Assembly (NCBI RefSeq): GCF_025736875.1
Contig: NZ_CP107052.1
Span: forward strand, 546,001 to 610,000
Direction of reading: 5' to 3'
Length of the DNA stretch: 64,000 bases
Source: Candidatus Kirkpatrickella diaphorinae
Lineage (GTDB): Bacteria; Pseudomonadota; Alphaproteobacteria; Acetobacterales; Acetobacteraceae
Part shown: positions 55,609 through 62,705 of the stretch, in pieces
Layout: each line of letters opens with the position of its first letter
Position numbering within the stretch: position 1 is the first letter of the stretch
Position numbers and translations under genes: made by a program
The notes under the pieces: model-generated
What the model saw: the letters and a program-made list of their open reading frames with translations, nothing else
Databases searched by the model: none
Told to the model about the DNA's origin: nothing

Positions 55609-56118
55609 TCAGGAATCGAGTATCCGATACATAAAGACGAGGTTAAGCCATCGGTCAAATTTGCGCCCCACTTCCGGGATCGCGGGCATGGCGGTAAAGC
55701 CGAATTTCTCATGCAACTGGATGGACGCCGTATTCGTGTCGGTAATGGCGCCGATCATCACGTGGCGCCCGGCTTCCGTCGCATGGGTGATCAAGGCGGT
55801 GAGAAGCATCTGGCCGATCCCGAGGCGGCTCATCCCCGGTTTAACGTAGATGGAGTGCTCGACCGTCTGCGCATAACCTTCATAGGGGCGGAAAGGGCCA
55901 TAACTGCCATAGCCGAAAAACGTGCCCTCACATATCACCACAAAAACGGGCATGTCGTTTTCCTGCTGCTGTTTCAGCCAGGCCGCACGTTGTTTGAGGG
56001 TTTGCGGCGTGTTGTTCCAAAGTGCGTCGGAATGCGCGATATTGTGATTGACGATCTCAAGAATTTCCGGGAGGTCTTCTTCCCGCGCGAGGCGAAGCTG
56101 ACAATCACGAGTGGTCAT
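55609..56118 (-). CDS. GNAT family N-acetyltransferase, phosphinothricin acetyltransferase-like
   Basis: A 169-residue GNAT protein. The acetyl-CoA loop is SRLGIGQMLLTALITHA, and the tail ATDTNTASIQLHEKFGF in register with RKFDRWLNLVFM is that of the Pat/Bar-like branch. That branch acetylates phosphinothricin, methionine sulfoximine or other small amines; the native substrate is unknown. The ATG at 56118 overlaps the prmA stop by four bases. A longer frame would start inside prmA. Confidence 0.85.
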   Translation of the reverse strand: MTTRDCQLRLAREEDLPEILEIVNHNIAHSDALWNNTPQTLKQRAAWLKQQQENDMPVFVVICEGTFFGYGSYGPFRPYEGYAQTVEHSIYVKPGMSRLGIGQMLLTALITHATEAGRHVMIGAITDTNTASIQLHEKFGFTAMPAIPEVGRKFDRWLNLVFMYRILDS

Positions 56119-57008
56119 GCGGGTTTCCTCAAAATAAGAGTGCACCATTCCCCTTCATAAATGCGGCGCTCCAGCACAAGGCCCTGACGACGATAGGCCG
56201 CCAGGACCATATTGGCTTGTGACGCAAGCAGTCCGGCCAATATGGTCGTCCCACCGCGTTTGAGTTTGGCGGCAAGGTCCCGGGCCATGAGGCAGAGGGG
56301 GCGTGCAAGGATATTAGCAAATATCAGGTCAAAATTCCGGCTGCGTCGCACGGCGGACGTGGCCCAGCCTTGGCCCTGCACCGCGTGAATCATATTTTTG
56401 AGGCCATTGAGCCGCGCATTGCTTCGGGTGACACGCGCAGACCATGGGTCAATATCCACAGCCAGGGCCGGGCGATGGAGATGCTTCACCGCGGCCATCG
56501 CCAGAATGCCGGAGCCACAACCCATATCCAGAATGCGGCGCGGGCGGCGATAAGCGACTTTCTCAAAACCGCGCAGGCAACCTCGGGTTGAGCCATGCTC
56601 CCCCGAGCCGAAGGCGATCCCTGCATCGAGCGTGATAACGTGCCGTCCCGGCGCGCGCTGCGCATCGAGATGCGTGCCACAAATCATGAAACGCTGGCCG
56701 ATCTCCTGCGGCGGAAAGGCTTCATAAATACGGGCCAGCCAGCCATCACTGTGGGTTGCCTGCTGATGAAGCGGCGCGTCATGGCCGGAGAGGAGGCGTG
56801 CCACCGTCAGGGCGCTTTGCAGCTCATCCTCACGATGGCCCTGATCACGCACCCCTTCAACCCGCCAGTTCCGATGGTCGTCATCCGCCTCGAAAATGCC
56901 GACAGTTGTGCAGACTGTGGCAAGCGCGCTCTCAAATAAAGGGACAGCGCTTTCCGCAACCGTGACGGAGAGGGTTTCAAGTTGTGTCGCGTGGCGCGGG
57001 CGGATCAT
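56115..57008 (-). CDS. prmA: Ribosomal protein L11 methyltransferase-like protein
   Basis: A 297-residue class I methyltransferase with PrmA layout. A substrate-binding N-terminal domain (about 1-95) is followed by ITLDAGIAFGSGEHGSTRGCL, the SAM motif ILDMGCGSGILAMAAV near 168, and FDLIFANILARPL in place of the family NPP-like motif. PrmA trimethylates L11. It overlaps uvrD upstream and the GNAT gene downstream by four bases each, so the three are coupled. Confidence 0.9.
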   Translation of the reverse strand: MIRPRHATQLETLSVTVAESAVPLFESALATVCTTVGIFEADDDHRNWRVEGVRDQGHREDELQSALTVARLLSGHDAPLHQQATHSDGWLARIYEAFPPQEIGQRFMICGTHLDAQRAPGRHVITLDAGIAFGSGEHGSTRGCLRGFEKVAYRRPRRILDMGCGSGILAMAAVKHLHRPALAVDIDPWSARVTRSNARLNGLKNMIHAVQGQGWATSAVRRSRNFDLIFANILARPLCLMARDLAAKLKRGGTTILAGLLASQANMVLAAYRRQGLVLERRIYEGEWCTLILRKPA

Positions 57009-59215
57009 GATGAGATCAAATCGACGTAACTGGCATGAACGGCCTTGTCGCCCGCTTTCTCGAAGGCGACGGATAAAGTCTCTCCATTGACGACCATAAT
57101 TGTACCATATCCATATTTCTGATGGAAAACGCGATGACCCGCCTCAAATTCTTCCATCGGGGGCGACATTGATGTTTTGCCCCTATCACGTCGCGCCAGA
57201 ATTGGCCAATGGCTGGCAGGGCGCGGGAAGGGCGTCTCCGGCACGCGAAAACCATTATAGGGGTTGATATCATTCCGCCATTCTTCCGGTATTTCCCCGA
57301 CAAACCGGCTCGGAATGCTGTCCTGCCAATTGGCGTAAATGCGCCGCCGCGCGGCGTGGCAGATGATGGCTCGCACCCTGGCACGGGTCAGCCCGACATA
57401 GGCCAGGCGCCGTTCCTCCTCAAGGCTGCGTTCTCCACCTTCTTCAAGGCTGCGTTGCGAGGGGAAAATACCCTCCTCCCATCCCGGCAGGAAGACCGTA
57501 TCAAATTCCAGCCCTTTTGCGCCATGGAGCGTCATGACATTGACCTTGTCATCCCCCTGTACGGCATCCGCATCCATCACAAGGGCAATATGCTCCAGAA
57601 ACGCTTCCAGTGACGGGAATTCCGCCATGGCGCGGAAAAGTTCCTTGATGTTATCAAGCTTGCCAGGCGCTTCGATTGATTTATCGTCACGCCACATCTG
57701 GAGATAACCGGCCTCTTCCAGCACAGCTTCCAGCGCGACGACATGGCCTTCCCCACCCAGCTTTTCACGCCCCTGCGCGAATATGTCGGATAAAGCCGCC
57801 AGAGCTTCCTGCCCCTTGCGGGTTAATAATTTAGGACCATCTTCAGCCAAGGCGGCCGCCATAAGCGGAACATGCTGTGCACGCGCGGCGGCATGAATTT
57901 TCTGCATCGCGGTGGCGCCAATCCCGCGGCGGGGCGTGTTGGCGATGCGTTCAAACGCGAGATCATCACCCGGGCGCGCCAGAAGACGAGCATAAGCCAG
58001 CGCGTCCCGGATTTCAGCGCGTTCATAAAATCTTATGCCGCCGATGATGCGGTAAGGGATGTTTTTGGCCAGCATACGATCTTCAAATGCGCGCGTCTGG
58101 AAGGAGGCGCGCACCAATATCGCCATTTGCGCGTAATCATGGCCCTCACGATGCAGCGCTTCAATCCGTGCGGTAATGAGATGCGCCTCACCATCCGAAT
58201 CCGGCGCTGCCAGAATGGTGACTTTCTCCCCCCTGCGGTCATCCGTCCCGGGGCGGAGTGTTTTACCCAGTCGGTCATGATTATGTGCGATCAGCCCGGA
58301 AGCGGCGGACAGGATTTCCTGCGTTGAACGGTAATTCTGTTCAAGCCGGATGATCTTCGCCTTCGGGAAATCACGCTCAAATCGAAGGATGTTCTCAATT
58401 TCAGCGCCGCGCCAGGAATATATGGACTGATCATCATCACCCACACAGGCGATATTGGCGTCTTCATCCTGGCGTTGTGACAAAAGACGTAGCCAAAGAT
58501 ATTGGGTTGTGTTCGTATCCTGATATTCGTCGACCATGATATATCTGAATAAATGATGATAAGATTTGAGAACCTCAGGATGCAGGCGCAGGATTTCATA
58601 AACGTGCAGGATAAGGTCGCCAAAATCACAGGCGTCGAGACTGCGCAACCTCTCCTGATAGGCGAGGTAAATATCGCGCGCCTTGCCCTGCGCGAAGTCA
58701 GTATCCTCAGCCGGCGTGATACTTGTCGGGGTAAGGGCGCGGTCCTTCCAACGCTGGATGACGCCGAGCATGGCGTTGGGCGACCAGCGTTTCACATCGA
58801 TTCCGGTCGGCTCCATCACCTGTTTGATGAGGCGGATCTGGTCATCCGTATCGAGAATGGTAAATTGATTGCTGAGACCAACCAGAGCGGCATGTCGACG
58901 CAGCATCCGCACGCAGATCGCGTGGAACGTGCCCAACCACAACCCATCGACTGTATGCCCGACGAGCGTCTCAATGCGGTCTTTCATTTCCCGCGCTGCT
59001 TTATTCGTGAAAGTCACGGCGAGAATTTGATGCGGGCGTGCTTTGCCCGTCAGAAGAAGATGCGCGAAGCGTGTCGTCAAAACGCGGGTTTTACCTGTCC
59101 CCGCGCCAGCGAGGATCAATAATGGCCCGTCGATTGACTCGACAGCGGCGCGCTGCTCAAGGTTTAAGCGTTTCAGGTATCCATGTGCTTCAGGGGATGG
59201 TACAGAATGATTCAC
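57005..59215 (-). CDS. uvrD: UvrD/PcrA-type ATP-dependent DNA helicase
   Basis: A 736-residue superfamily 1A helicase. Walker A GAGTGKTRVLTTR lies near residue 37, motif Ib AVTFTNKAAREMKDR near 65, the Q/DExx box MVDEYQDTN near 226, VGDDDQSIYSWRGA near 256, and the C-terminal MTLHGAKGLEFDTVFLPG near 560. It unwinds DNA in nucleotide excision and mismatch repair. It starts with GTG and opens the five-gene minus-strand series uvrD-prmA-GNAT-pepP-icd. Only 50 bases separate it from the divergent RadC-family gene. Confidence 0.94.
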   Translation of the reverse strand: MNHSVPSPEAHGYLKRLNLEQRAAVESIDGPLLILAGAGTGKTRVLTTRFAHLLLTGKARPHQILAVTFTNKAAREMKDRIETLVGHTVDGLWLGTFHAICVRMLRRHAALVGLSNQFTILDTDDQIRLIKQVMEPTGIDVKRWSPNAMLGVIQRWKDRALTPTSITPAEDTDFAQGKARDIYLAYQERLRSLDACDFGDLILHVYEILRLHPEVLKSYHHLFRYIMVDEYQDTNTTQYLWLRLLSQRQDEDANIACVGDDDQSIYSWRGAEIENILRFERDFPKAKIIRLEQNYRSTQEILSAASGLIAHNHDRLGKTLRPGTDDRRGEKVTILAAPDSDGEAHLITARIEALHREGHDYAQMAILVRASFQTRAFEDRMLAKNIPYRIIGGIRFYERAEIRDALAYARLLARPGDDLAFERIANTPRRGIGATAMQKIHAAARAQHVPLMAAALAEDGPKLLTRKGQEALAALSDIFAQGREKLGGEGHVVALEAVLEEAGYLQMWRDDKSIEAPGKLDNIKELFRAMAEFPSLEAFLEHIALVMDADAVQGDDKVNVMTLHGAKGLEFDTVFLPGWEEGIFPSQRSLEEGGERSLEEERRLAYVGLTRARVRAIICHAARRRIYANWQDSIPSRFVGEIPEEWRNDINPYNGFRVPETPFPRPASHWPILARRDRGKTSMSPPMEEFEAGHRVFHQKYGYGTIMVVNGETLSVAFEKAGDKAVHASYVDLISS

Positions 59216-59265: not shown

Positions 59266-59946
59266 ATGAGCAGGCGGTCTTCCAGTCAAAAGAACAGCGT
59301 GCTCGGCCATCGTGCCCGTATGCGGGAGCGCGTTTTGCGCAATGGCGTCGAATCTCTGGCGGATTACGAAATAATCGAAATGCTGCTGTTTCTTTCTGTC
59401 CCCAGGCAGGACACAAAGCCGCGCGCCAAGGAGTTGATGGCCACGTTTGGTTCCATTGGCGGCGTTGTAAATGCACCCGTGACTCGCCTGCGCGAGATTG
59501 GTCTCAACGACAAGGCGATTAAAATCATGCGCCTCCCGCAGGCAGCGGCATCATTGCTGGCCGTGTCTGAGCCACAGGCCGAGATCGTCGTTGGCGCATG
59601 GGAGGAACTCGTTGATTATCTGCATGACACAATGGAGATCATGCCGGAGGATAGCTCTCGCGTGCTATTCCTCAATAACAAGAACCGGCTTCTGGCCGAT
59701 GAGGCTTTTAATGTAGGTCGCGACACGCAGGATATGTTCCGCCGGGCCTTATCTCTGCATGCAACGGCGCTTATATGTTTGCACTCTGTGCAATTCAACG
59801 TGCAGGGCGAGGCGCGTCGACTTCGGAGTGTTGCAGTCAAACTACAGAAAGAGACAGAACACCTCGCAATTACGCTGCATGACTATATTTTGATTGATAA
59901 ACAATTCGAATTGTTCAGTTTCCGGCAACAAGGAATTATCGTCTGA
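59266..59946 (+). CDS. RadC-family protein lacking the JAMM metal site
   Basis: A 226-residue RadC homologue. The N-terminal UPF0758 region is well kept: HRARMRER (15-22), DYEIIEMLLF (33-42) and PRQDTKP (46-52), then a helix-hairpin-helix-like segment. The C-terminal domain keeps the fold pattern (RVLFLNNKNRLLADEAF, RRALSLHATALI, HDYILID). However, the HNHPSGDPTPS..D metal motif is replaced by LHSVQFNVQGEARRL (172-186), and the PRE segment is DTQDMF. It cannot bind zinc in the usual way and is probably inactive as a JAMM hydrolase. A normal-JAMM RadC gene follows 136 bases downstream. Confidence 0.85.
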   Translation: MSRRSSSQKNSVLGHRARMRERVLRNGVESLADYEIIEMLLFLSVPRQDTKPRAKELMATFGSIGGVVNAPVTRLREIGLNDKAIKIMRLPQAAASLLAVSEPQAEIVVGAWEELVDYLHDTMEIMPEDSSRVLFLNNKNRLLADEAFNVGRDTQDMFRRALSLHATALICLHSVQFNVQGEARRLRSVAVKLQKETEHLAITLHDYILIDKQFELFSFRQQGIIV

Positions 59947-60082
59947 AAGCAATTGCGCGGTGCGGTAAAAAAAGAGTTTTGATTAGGATCACCTTTCGCT
60001 AAGTTTGAAGCGCGACTTTCATCATTCGTTAACTGTTTGACGCTGTAGACTTATCCCGTTCCTCCCCGATCCTCATCAGTGT

Positions 60083-60898
60083 TTGTCCCAACGAGAGGCT
60101 ACTCTGCCAAGAATAAATCGAAAAAATAGAACGAGGAAGAGGCCAACCGGGTCGAATGATCTCTTTGACGTCATCGGCTCCGGGTGGTCGCGGGTCGCCC
60201 TGAGTGAAATTGAAGCGGCGGAAAGCCTGCCGGTCAAAGATGACTATGACCAGATTCGACATTTCCTGCGGGTGTTGCAAATTCCGGAAGATGTCGCGGC
60301 TGCGGTGTCCGTCAATCTCAAGGCGCGCTTCGGCTCCTTCTCCGGTTTACTTTGCGCGCCCAATGAAGCGCTCACATCCGTCCCGAATTTTCCAGTCGGC
60401 GCCATCATCGCCGTGCGCCTCGTTCAGGAAGCGGCCATCCGCATTAATCGAGAGCGCATCAATAAAAAGAACGTTCTCGCCGATAAGCAATTTCTTCTGG
60501 ATTATCTGACCAGTCGGTTAGCGCGGGAGGCCGTTGAGCAGTTTCGTGTTATTTTCCTGTCTGATGATGGCGGTTTTCTGGCGGATGAAGCGCAGGCGCA
60601 GGGCACGGTCAATCATACACCTGTCTACCCTCGGGAAGTTGCGCGTCGCGCGATGGAGTTAAGAGCCGCCAACCTCATTCTCGTCCATAATCACCCGAGT
60701 GGAGACCCGACTCCATCAGGCAGCGACATCCACATGACACATCAGATCATGTATGCAACGCGCCTGATCGGCGTTGATATTCTTGACCATCTGGTGATTG
60801 GTAAAGGGCGTTACGCCAGTCTTAAAGAACTCGGCTTACTCGAGCCCGTCATTGAGGATCGGCCCAAGCGCGGCGGCAAGCCCAAGATCCCCGGGTAG
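60083..60898 (+). CDS. radC: RadC-family protein with intact JAMM motif and divergent N-terminus
   Basis: A 271-residue protein whose C-terminal half is a canonical RadC JAMM domain. It has E185 in VYPREVARRAM, HNHPSGDPTPSGSD (202-215) and DHLVIGKGRYASLKELG (235-251), so zinc binding is expected. The N-terminal 130 residues are unusual: the HRxRMRxR and DYEIIEMLL segments are missing. They are replaced by a basic leader (INRKNRTRKR) and DYDQIRHFLRVLQIPE. RadC proteins have no settled function despite the repair name. The start is uncertain (TTG at 60083). The last 63 bases overlap the convergent purK gene. Confidence 0.88.
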   Translation: MSQREATLPRINRKNRTRKRPTGSNDLFDVIGSGWSRVALSEIEAAESLPVKDDYDQIRHFLRVLQIPEDVAAAVSVNLKARFGSFSGLLCAPNEALTSVPNFPVGAIIAVRLVQEAAIRINRERINKKNVLADKQFLLDYLTSRLAREAVEQFRVIFLSDDGGFLADEAQAQGTVNHTPVYPREVARRAMELRAANLILVHNHPSGDPTPSGSDIHMTHQIMYATRLIGVDILDHLVIGKGRYASLKELGLLEPVIEDRPKRGGKPKIPG

Positions 60899-61975
60899 CG
60901 CCCCTTTAGGGAAAAGCGCATTGATGTGACCCATTTTGCGCCCGGGCCGTGCCTCCGCCTTGCCGTAAAGATGCAGGCGCGTGCCGGGTGTTTCCAACGC
61001 TTTAGAGGCCGCGACATATGTGCCGGGGCCGACCAGATTTTTCATGACAGCATCGCTATGACGGGTGAGGGGTTGGGCGCGCAGCCCCGCCACCATGCGA
61101 ATATGCGCCTCAAACTGACTGATCAAACAGGCATCCTGCGTCCAATGACCGGAATTATGGGGTCGCGGCGCGATCTCATTCACGCGCAATTCCCCCTTCG
61201 CGTCCAGGAACAACTCGACGGCGAGGATGCCCACAAGCTCCAATCCATGGGCAATGCGGCACGCAATGTCCTGCGCTGAAGCAGCCAGCTCAGGGCTGAT
61301 GCGGGCCGGGGCGAGGCTGATATCAAGGATGCCATGTTGATGGCGATTTTCCGTCACGTCGAAGCAGAACGCGTCACCATAGAGATCCCGCGCGACGATG
61401 ACGCTGAGTTCCCGATCAAAATCAACGAGGCCCTCGGCGATAAGCGGGTAGGGCAGCGTGTCCTGGATAGCTTCAAGATCCTGAGGGCTGTTGACCCGCC
61501 ACTGCCCCTTCCCATCATAGCCGAAACGCGTCTGTTTCAGGATAAACGGAAAGCCGAGTGCCGCCTCGATCGAGGCAAGCGCATCAGGGTCTGTCACGGC
61601 GACCCAGGGTGCTGTCTTCAGGCCGAAAGCGTTAAGCCGGGACTTCTCAACAATGCGGTCCTGACTGATTTCCAATATTTTGCGTGAAGGATGCACGGGC
61701 TTGAGCGATTCAAGCAATGCGATGCTTTCAGCGGGAATATTTTCAAATTCGAAGGTGACGACATCGACATTTTCCGCGAAACGCCGCAGGGCGGATTCAT
61801 CGTCATAAGCGCCGATCGTCGCGGATGGGGCTACGTCAAGTGCGGGCTCATCGTCCCGTGGCGAGAAGATATGGCAGTGAAAGCCCATTTCCGCCGCCGC
61901 CATGGCGGACATGCGGCCAAGCTGCCCGCCGCCAATAATGCCGATTCGCCCCCCAGGCTTCAAAATATGCGGCAT
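60836..61975 (-). CDS. purK: N5-carboxyaminoimidazole ribonucleotide synthase
   Basis: A 379-residue ATP-grasp enzyme. GGRIGIIGGGQLGRMSAMAA starts it, ILKQTRFGYDGKGQWRV is the ATP lysine loop, and FLDAKGELRVNEIAPRPHNSGHWTQDA is the metal and substrate site. It carboxylates AIR using bicarbonate and ATP in purine synthesis. purE lies three bases upstream. Its 3' end overlaps the convergent radC gene by 63 bases, so the last 20 residues of PurK are encoded opposite the RadC tail. Confidence 0.95.
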   Translation of the reverse strand: MPHILKPGGRIGIIGGGQLGRMSAMAAAEMGFHCHIFSPRDDEPALDVAPSATIGAYDDESALRRFAENVDVVTFEFENIPAESIALLESLKPVHPSRKILEISQDRIVEKSRLNAFGLKTAPWVAVTDPDALASIEAALGFPFILKQTRFGYDGKGQWRVNSPQDLEAIQDTLPYPLIAEGLVDFDRELSVIVARDLYGDAFCFDVTENRHQHGILDISLAPARISPELAASAQDIACRIAHGLELVGILAVELFLDAKGELRVNEIAPRPHNSGHWTQDACLISQFEAHIRMVAGLRAQPLTRHSDAVMKNLVGPGTYVAASKALETPGTRLHLYGKAEARPGRKMGHINALFPKGALPGDLGLAAALGPILNDGLE

Positions 61976-61978
61976 GGC

Positions 61979-62479
61979 CTAGCCCTCAGGTGCGTCTTTG
62001 ACGTTATCCGTCTGAGCCTGGCGCCATTTTTCAAGACGGATGCGCACCGCGTCATCGTCCAGAGACAGGATCGACGCCGCTGTCAGGGCGGCATTGATGG
62101 CCCCCGCGCGGCCAATGGCGAAGGTTGCCACCGGCACGCCGCCAGGCATCTGCACGATGGAAAGGAGGGAGTCCATGCCTTTCAGCGCGCGGCTCTCGAC
62201 CGGCACACCAAGGACGGGGAGGGTCGTCCAGGCTGACACCATCCCGGGCAGATGCGCGGCACCGCCCGCACCGGCGATAATGACTTTGAGACCCGCATCC
62301 CGCGCTGAAACAGCATATTGTCGCAGGCGGTCCGGTGTGCGGTGTGCTGAGACGATTTTCGTCTGGTGCGCGATCAACAACGCGTCCAGCGTCTGGGAAG
62401 CGTGCTGCATCGTCTCCCAGTCACTCTGACTTCCCATAATGATGCCAACATAGGCGGATCGGTCTCGATTTCGATTCAC
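61979..62479 (-). CDS. purE: N5-carboxyaminoimidazole ribonucleotide mutase
   Basis: A 166-residue class I Pur[15 protein letters not shown] binds the phosphate, SAHRTPDRL carries the catalytic histidine, and [26 protein letters not shown] is the signature. It moves the carboxylate from N5 to C4 of the ribonucleotide made by PurK. The GTG at 62479 was preferred because ACAGGAAAGC precedes it; another GTG 13 codons upstream is possible. purE-purK form an operon. Confidence 0.94.
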
Positions 62480-62705
62480 GCTTTCCTGTCCTGTATTCGG
62501 TCGTCTCTCATCTGACACGTCAAACCGGCTTCGGTTCGGAGGGAGGGGCGGGCAGGCAGGTTTATTGCACCGTCCTCACCTCTGAAGTGCCCATGCCCAG
62601 GCGCGATCAACCATGTAGCGCCATGATGTGACAGCGAAACGCCGAGATCCCGCTGCGCCACATAGGCTCAACGCACAGCATCGCTGCAATCGTCAGCGGC
62701 CTGCC

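Follow-up and report, generated by a model that had tools for sequence, protein, structure and literature searches.

Natural split of RadC into two conserved, probably co-dependent paralogues in the Acetobacteraceae

The eukaryotic Rpn11-Rpn8 and CSN5-CSN6 complexes are MPN+/MPN- heterodimers in which an active subunit is joined to an inactive one. Their inactive partners, Rpn8 and CSN6, are not known to retain a further set of invariant motifs that has disappeared from the active ones. Stand-alone RadC-like JAMM proteins of the E. coli YeeS/YkfG/YfjY type occur on mobile elements and prophages. RadC itself occurs in a wide range of bacteria and has a disputed function. According to work cited in PMC11981726, radC mutants show normal sensitivity to DNA damage; Vibrio cholerae transformation is normal without radC (PMC6237807), and in Zymomonas radC belongs to the thermotolerance genes (PMC5571576). 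A ubiquitin-tail groove is described as unlikely in the JAB domains of RadC, and nucleic-acid processing has been favored as their role (PMC5512222). Ordinary RadC (PF04002 RadC plus PF20582 UPF0758_N; TIGR00608; E. coli RadC, 2QLC) carries an N-terminal motif set and a JAMM motif on a single chain. It is the source family of two neighboring genes, A and B, that we analyzed in Candidatus Kirkpatrickella diaphorinae, within a 64,000-nucleotide stretch of DNA referred to here as the window:

56115-57008, minus strand: prmA-like methyltransferase, conserved upstream neighbor, divergent from A
57005-59215, minus strand: uvrD/pcrA-like helicase, conserved upstream neighbor, divergent from A
59266-59946, plus strand: gene A, RadC paralogue of 226 aa with intact N-terminal motifs and a degenerate JAMM motif (open reading frame and profile matches)
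59308-59421, plus strand: N-terminal signatures of A, HRARMR (aa 15-20), DYEIIEMLLF (aa 33-42) and PRQDTKP (aa 46-52)
59587-59943, plus strand: predicted pseudo-JAMM (JAB-fold) domain of A, aa 108-226; its model aligns to 2QLC, and its dN/dS is ~0.22
59779-59823, plus strand: LHSVQFNVQGEARRL in A, at the place of the zinc motif HNHPSGDPTPSxxD (translation and alignment)
59947-60082, plus strand: intergenic gap between A and B, 136 bases
~60083-60898, plus strand: gene B, RadC paralogue of 271 aa with an intact JAMM motif and degenerate N-terminal signatures; the open frame starts at 60041, and the TTG start at 60083 is uncertain
60242-60457, plus strand: N-terminal helical region of B (aa 54-125, AlphaFold2 helices) without HRxRMR/DYE/PRxDTKP, the motif positions being scrambled across 85 B sequences
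60587-60589, plus strand: JAMM glutamate E169 of B (LADE), E in 68 of 85 B sequences
60629-60727, plus strand: PRE (aa 183-185) through the zinc-site motif HNHPSGDPTPSGSD (aa 202-215) of B, from the alignment of 85 B sequences
60836-61975, minus strand: purK, conserved downstream neighbor
61979-62518, minus strand: purE, conserved downstream neighbor

Gene A presents GHRARMRER, LADYEIIEMLLF and PRQDTKP in that order, followed by LHSVQFNVQGEARRL where HNHPSGDPTPSxxD belongs, and gene B carries ADE, GTVNHTPVYPRE and HNHPSGDPTPSGSD. A thus shares the N-terminal motif set of ordinary RadC and B its JAMM motif, and the models of both adopt the RadC JAB fold. Unlike ordinary RadC, with both motif sets on one chain, A and B have one each: E...HxHP...SxxD is found in B and not in A, neither protein holds the two sets or counts by itself as a canonical RadC, and the pair together is complete. 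Profile searches reflect this division. Pfam RadC matches A at 6e-12 and B at 1.3e-37; UPF0758_N matches A weakly (3e-4, below the Pfam cut-off), the NCBIfam TIGR00608 match to A is likewise below cut-off, and that to B covers only profile position 35 onward. No RadC-like gene besides A and B was found in the complete 2.18-Mb source genome.

To compare the two genes with their source family, we aligned 260 RadC-like sequences, among them 84 A, 85 B and 87 of the ordinary type. One A entry, L138, is closely similar to ordinary RadC and is possibly not a true A. Ten N-terminal positions (H, R, R, D, Y, E, E, R, D, P) are invariant in 84 of 84 A sequences, in which the two histidines of the JAMM motif vary, as do its serine and aspartate. 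The JAMM-region G, T, R, H, H, P, S and D are invariant in 85 of 85 B sequences, in which the N-terminal positions vary. The 87 ordinary sequences show little or no variation at most positions of both motif sets. Some of the aligned residues served to sort sequences into A, B and ordinary RadC, and residues that were not so used show the same pattern.

The AlphaFold2 model of A has a mean pLDDT of 91.8; its pTM is only 0.63, which makes the arrangement of the two domains relative to each other uncertain. Residues 105-225 superimpose on the RadC JAMM domain 2QLC with a Z score of 16.3 over 118 residues at 2.3 Å (VIA-align; Foldseek 2.9e-8). Matches to other JAB entries are weak, with Z under 8, and those to MPN+/MPN- entries are weak JAB-fold matches. 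Given the confident model and its match to 2QLC, A is predicted to be a structured pseudo-JAMM protein whose JAB domain is folded as in RadC. The model of B has a mean pLDDT of 83.5 and matches 2QLC at 1.3e-11 (Foldseek). Fold searches with the two models returned nothing beyond the known RadC/JAB fold.

These results bear on the original prediction, which had been made from the DNA of the window. Its reading of A, as keeping HRARMRER, DYEIIEMLLF and PRQDTKP and lacking the JAMM residues, agrees with the open reading frame, the profiles and the 84 A sequences. B was described as having full JAMM and PRE segments without the N-terminal signatures; both points stand, but the helical N-terminal fold is retained despite the loss of the signatures (helices 54-125, pLDDT ~90, AlphaFold2). 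The proposal that each gene has lost what its partner keeps is borne out by the mirrored conservation in 84 A and 85 B.

The same pair occurs in ~84 Acetobacteraceae genomes identified by profile searches and examined in detail, the set to which our census counts refer. The samples comprised a search of 299 family genomes with a profile of A, a Pfam RadC search of relatives and a scan of named genomes; family-wide profile counts apply to the matches listed. In many genomes the Pfam search recovered two RadC, one strong and the other weak, whose sequences are the same A and B. Among the matches listed, the pair spans at least ~28 genus-level groups. It is present in Gluconobacter, Asaia, Acidomonas, Tanticharoenia, Neokomagataea, Acetobacter, Gluconacetobacter, Bombella and Roseomonas mucosa. 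The named-genome scan found one ordinary RadC at the matching locus in Neoroseomonas, Belnapia and Acidiphilium. Nearly all sampled acetic acid bacteria have exactly two RadC copies, A and B. Three genomes (G013, G018 and Roseomonas mucosa) hold the pair alongside an ordinary RadC, so a different job is possible there. An extra divergent JAMM-only RadC-like gene is seen in G155 (L211) and G186 (L176), both of which also hold A. A weak second RadC beside a strong one was found in none of 104 genomes of other alphaproteobacterial families, which so far limits the pair to the Acetobacteraceae. It is apparently undescribed: the literature that we searched for RadC heterodimers or paralogs and for tandem copies in Acetobacter, which included few subscription papers, does not mention it.

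Both genes were classified as sound in 80 of the 84 genomes. The four exceptions are G018, with a frameshifted B; G010, with A divided across contig ends; G242, in which B is present but cut at the edge of the fetched locus; and G001, a sister species and the closest relative. No genome among the ~84 examined in detail has a sound A without B or a sound B without A, and this near-constant co-occurrence suggests one joint machine. In G001, A is intact, and codon 145 of B (L033:2532-3389) has gone from CGG to an in-frame TGA; three amino-acid changes follow closely, at codons 155, 156 and 160. As dN/dS of this B is still ~0.1, the TGA would mark either a recent loss or an error of the assembly. 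The TGA speaks against strict obligacy of the pair in the G001 lineage.

The commonest gene order is prmA-uvrD (minus), A (plus), B (plus) and purK-purE (minus), in many cases with a gene for a HAD-type phosphatase (minus) between A and B. This HAD-type gene (FDLDGTIIDSR; for example L042:2492-3250 and L085:4637-5356, plus others) recurs in many genera and is not there in the window. With an opposite-strand gene between A and B in several genera, co-transcription is not universal. In Bombella, and in several Gluconobacter and several Acetobacter genomes, the two genes touch or overlap. Elsewhere they are unlinked and both retained, as in Acetobacter fallax, A. estunensis, Acetobacter sp. AN02, G318, G014 and, as one whole genus, g65 (seven genomes). 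In G014, A still adjoins uvrD, with B ~109 kb distant. That genome also has, ~1 Mb away from its intact B, a fragment of the B JAMM region (L049:2370-2567; G014:C1:2556768-2557015), which may be the scar of an integration event. Natural fusions exist in two lineages. G090 encodes a single 626-aa A-B open reading frame, and no further RadC was found in it; G132 (523 aa) and G229 (524 aa) likewise join A and B in one frame, and most N-terminal signatures are gone from their A halves too. A chance tandem is ruled out by the conserved synteny and by recurrence in ~84 genomes with mirrored conservation.

We then estimated selection on each domain. Median dN/dS is mirrored between A and B: it is 0.135 for the N-terminal and 0.225 for the JAB domain of A, 0.304 and 0.098 for those of B, and 0.369 and 0.255 for those of ordinary RadC; between the source genome and G001, A differs by a dN of 0.012 and a dS of 0.175. 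These substitution patterns indicate that purifying selection still acts on the pseudo-JAMM domain of A. Pairwise distances of A and B are correlated (0.935, 18 taxa), and the partial correlation given uvrD and prmA is 0.70 (permutation p 0.0002, 18 taxa), with uvrD as the main control since prmA distances correlate poorly with everything. Shifts common to small genomes might account for the A-B rate correlation.

In trees that are short of columns and leave many forks open, A sequences lie on one side of a branch for the N domain (SH-aLRT 94) and B sequences on one side of a branch for the JAB domain (SH-aLRT 86, with the long G014 branch excluded). Keeping G014 in the JAB tree requires three changes with no starred conflict. 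The trees are compatible with one duplication followed by opposite losses, short of proof. Elioraea tepidiphila has a tandem radC (L095:2946-4654) with the N-terminal as well as the JAMM motifs intact in each copy, and tandem radC pairs also lie on contigs of G220 and G312 among the matches listed. The intact Elioraea tandem is a possible ancestral starting state of the split pair.

Several expectations of the original prediction could be followed in these data. It had looked for the same pair in related genomes, which was found across the genus-level groups given above, and for co-occurrence of the two genes, which holds even when they are unlinked, with neither soundly alone in the genomes examined. 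Frameshifts or relaxed selection in A had been named as evidence against it; neither was seen, and A-B fusions exist besides. The trees it called for, of the JAMM and N-terminal regions, fit a single origin of A (94) and of B (86). Obligate pairing fared less uniformly: co-occurrence and fusions favor it, but B is broken by the TGA in G001.

The radC split into two paralogues, probably co-dependent, is real and conserved. We think it probable that one ordinary RadC was duplicated within the Acetobacteraceae, and that the copies, A and B, degenerated reciprocally into an obligate two-subunit RadC. Having lost opposite halves, they would spread a single RadC function over two polypeptides. B would be the active JAB subunit, with its HxHP...SxxD zinc site and E/PRE residues intact, and A a pseudo-JAMM subunit supplying the HRxRMR/DYExxE/PRxDTKP site. 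A heterodimer of A and B is likely; the two may bind through paired JAB domains and act on a substrate related to nucleic acid.

Retention of A as a decaying copy, held by linkage or chance beside a B that alone is the working RadC, is highly improbable, even though the only recognised catalytic motif has been lost from A. A accompanies B in every sampled genome that has B, survives when unlinked, has invariant N-terminal residues and dN/dS of ~0.14-0.23, and in G001 it is B that is broken and not A; on dN/dS, invariance and distribution we reject the pseudogene reading. An origin from phage or defence systems was also rejected, the matches being only weak or generic JAB.

The two proteins might instead perform separate steps of one RadC-dependent process without a stable heteromer, A for example binding or sensing nucleic acid and B acting as an independent hydrolase. 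The genes are frequently outside one transcription unit and sometimes unlinked, and B retains its own helical N-terminal domain, as this arrangement would allow. We nevertheless regard it as unlikely in light of the natural fusions in two lineages, the overlap of A and B in several genera, the pseudo-JAMM fold maintained in A and the correlated A-B rates. A heteromer with a new role unlike that of ordinary RadC would suit the three genomes that hold the pair plus an ordinary RadC; this is quite unlikely, as the pair has replaced ordinary RadC in sampled acetic acid bacteria and the motif sets kept by A and by B are those of the ancestor. One joint machine is the best explanation of the rate correlation, the co-occurrence of unlinked genes and the natural fusions taken together.

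Relative to the described systems, the pair resembles Rpn11-Rpn8, CSN5-CSN6 and BRCC36-KIAA0157 (5CW3) in that a JAMM-active protein and a pseudo-JAMM paralogue co-occur, and B and A appear to be such co-occurring active and inactive JAB paralogues. It differs in belonging to another JAB clade without a known ubiquitin system, and in that A-B dimerization is only inferred. The suggested MPN+/MPN- parallel carries over, as an analogy, for an active plus a pseudo-enzyme JAB domain, but not for the second invariant motif set that A keeps and B has lost. B resembles the stand-alone JAMM proteins (YeeS/YkfG/YfjY type, PHROG 10276) as a JAMM domain without N-terminal signatures, but has a conserved chromosomal neighborhood, a degenerate N-terminal domain and A as a partner.

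In some genomes a large insertion cuts ordinary radC precisely at its HNHP codons, of ~26 kb in G017 (L249/L250; G017:C23, ~45.1 and 71.0 kb) and ~104 kb in G357 (L251/L252; G357:C1, ~1806.3 and 1910.4 kb), and probably in the same way in G372 and G401. The two pieces share a few codons, TGGTCCACAACCA in G357. A cut at HNHP with pieces overlapping by a few codons makes the JAMM motif look like an integration site for mobile elements.

If A and B bind through paired JAB domains, ordinary RadC would be a homo-oligomer, with N-terminal and JAMM sites possibly on different chains. Tentatively, and at somewhat less than even likelihood, we extend this to RadC in general, as an oligomer with two sites whose N-terminal site on one chain would serve the JAMM site on a different chain; acetic acid bacteria would have made of it an obligate AB heteromer whose reaction needs both sites in trans. 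The split places the conserved sites on two genes, so that each can be removed independently of the other, and it gives a co-purification and complementation test of RadC. It predicts that ordinary RadC acts as an oligomer and, if true, would be a bacterial instance of an active/pseudo-enzyme JAB pair.
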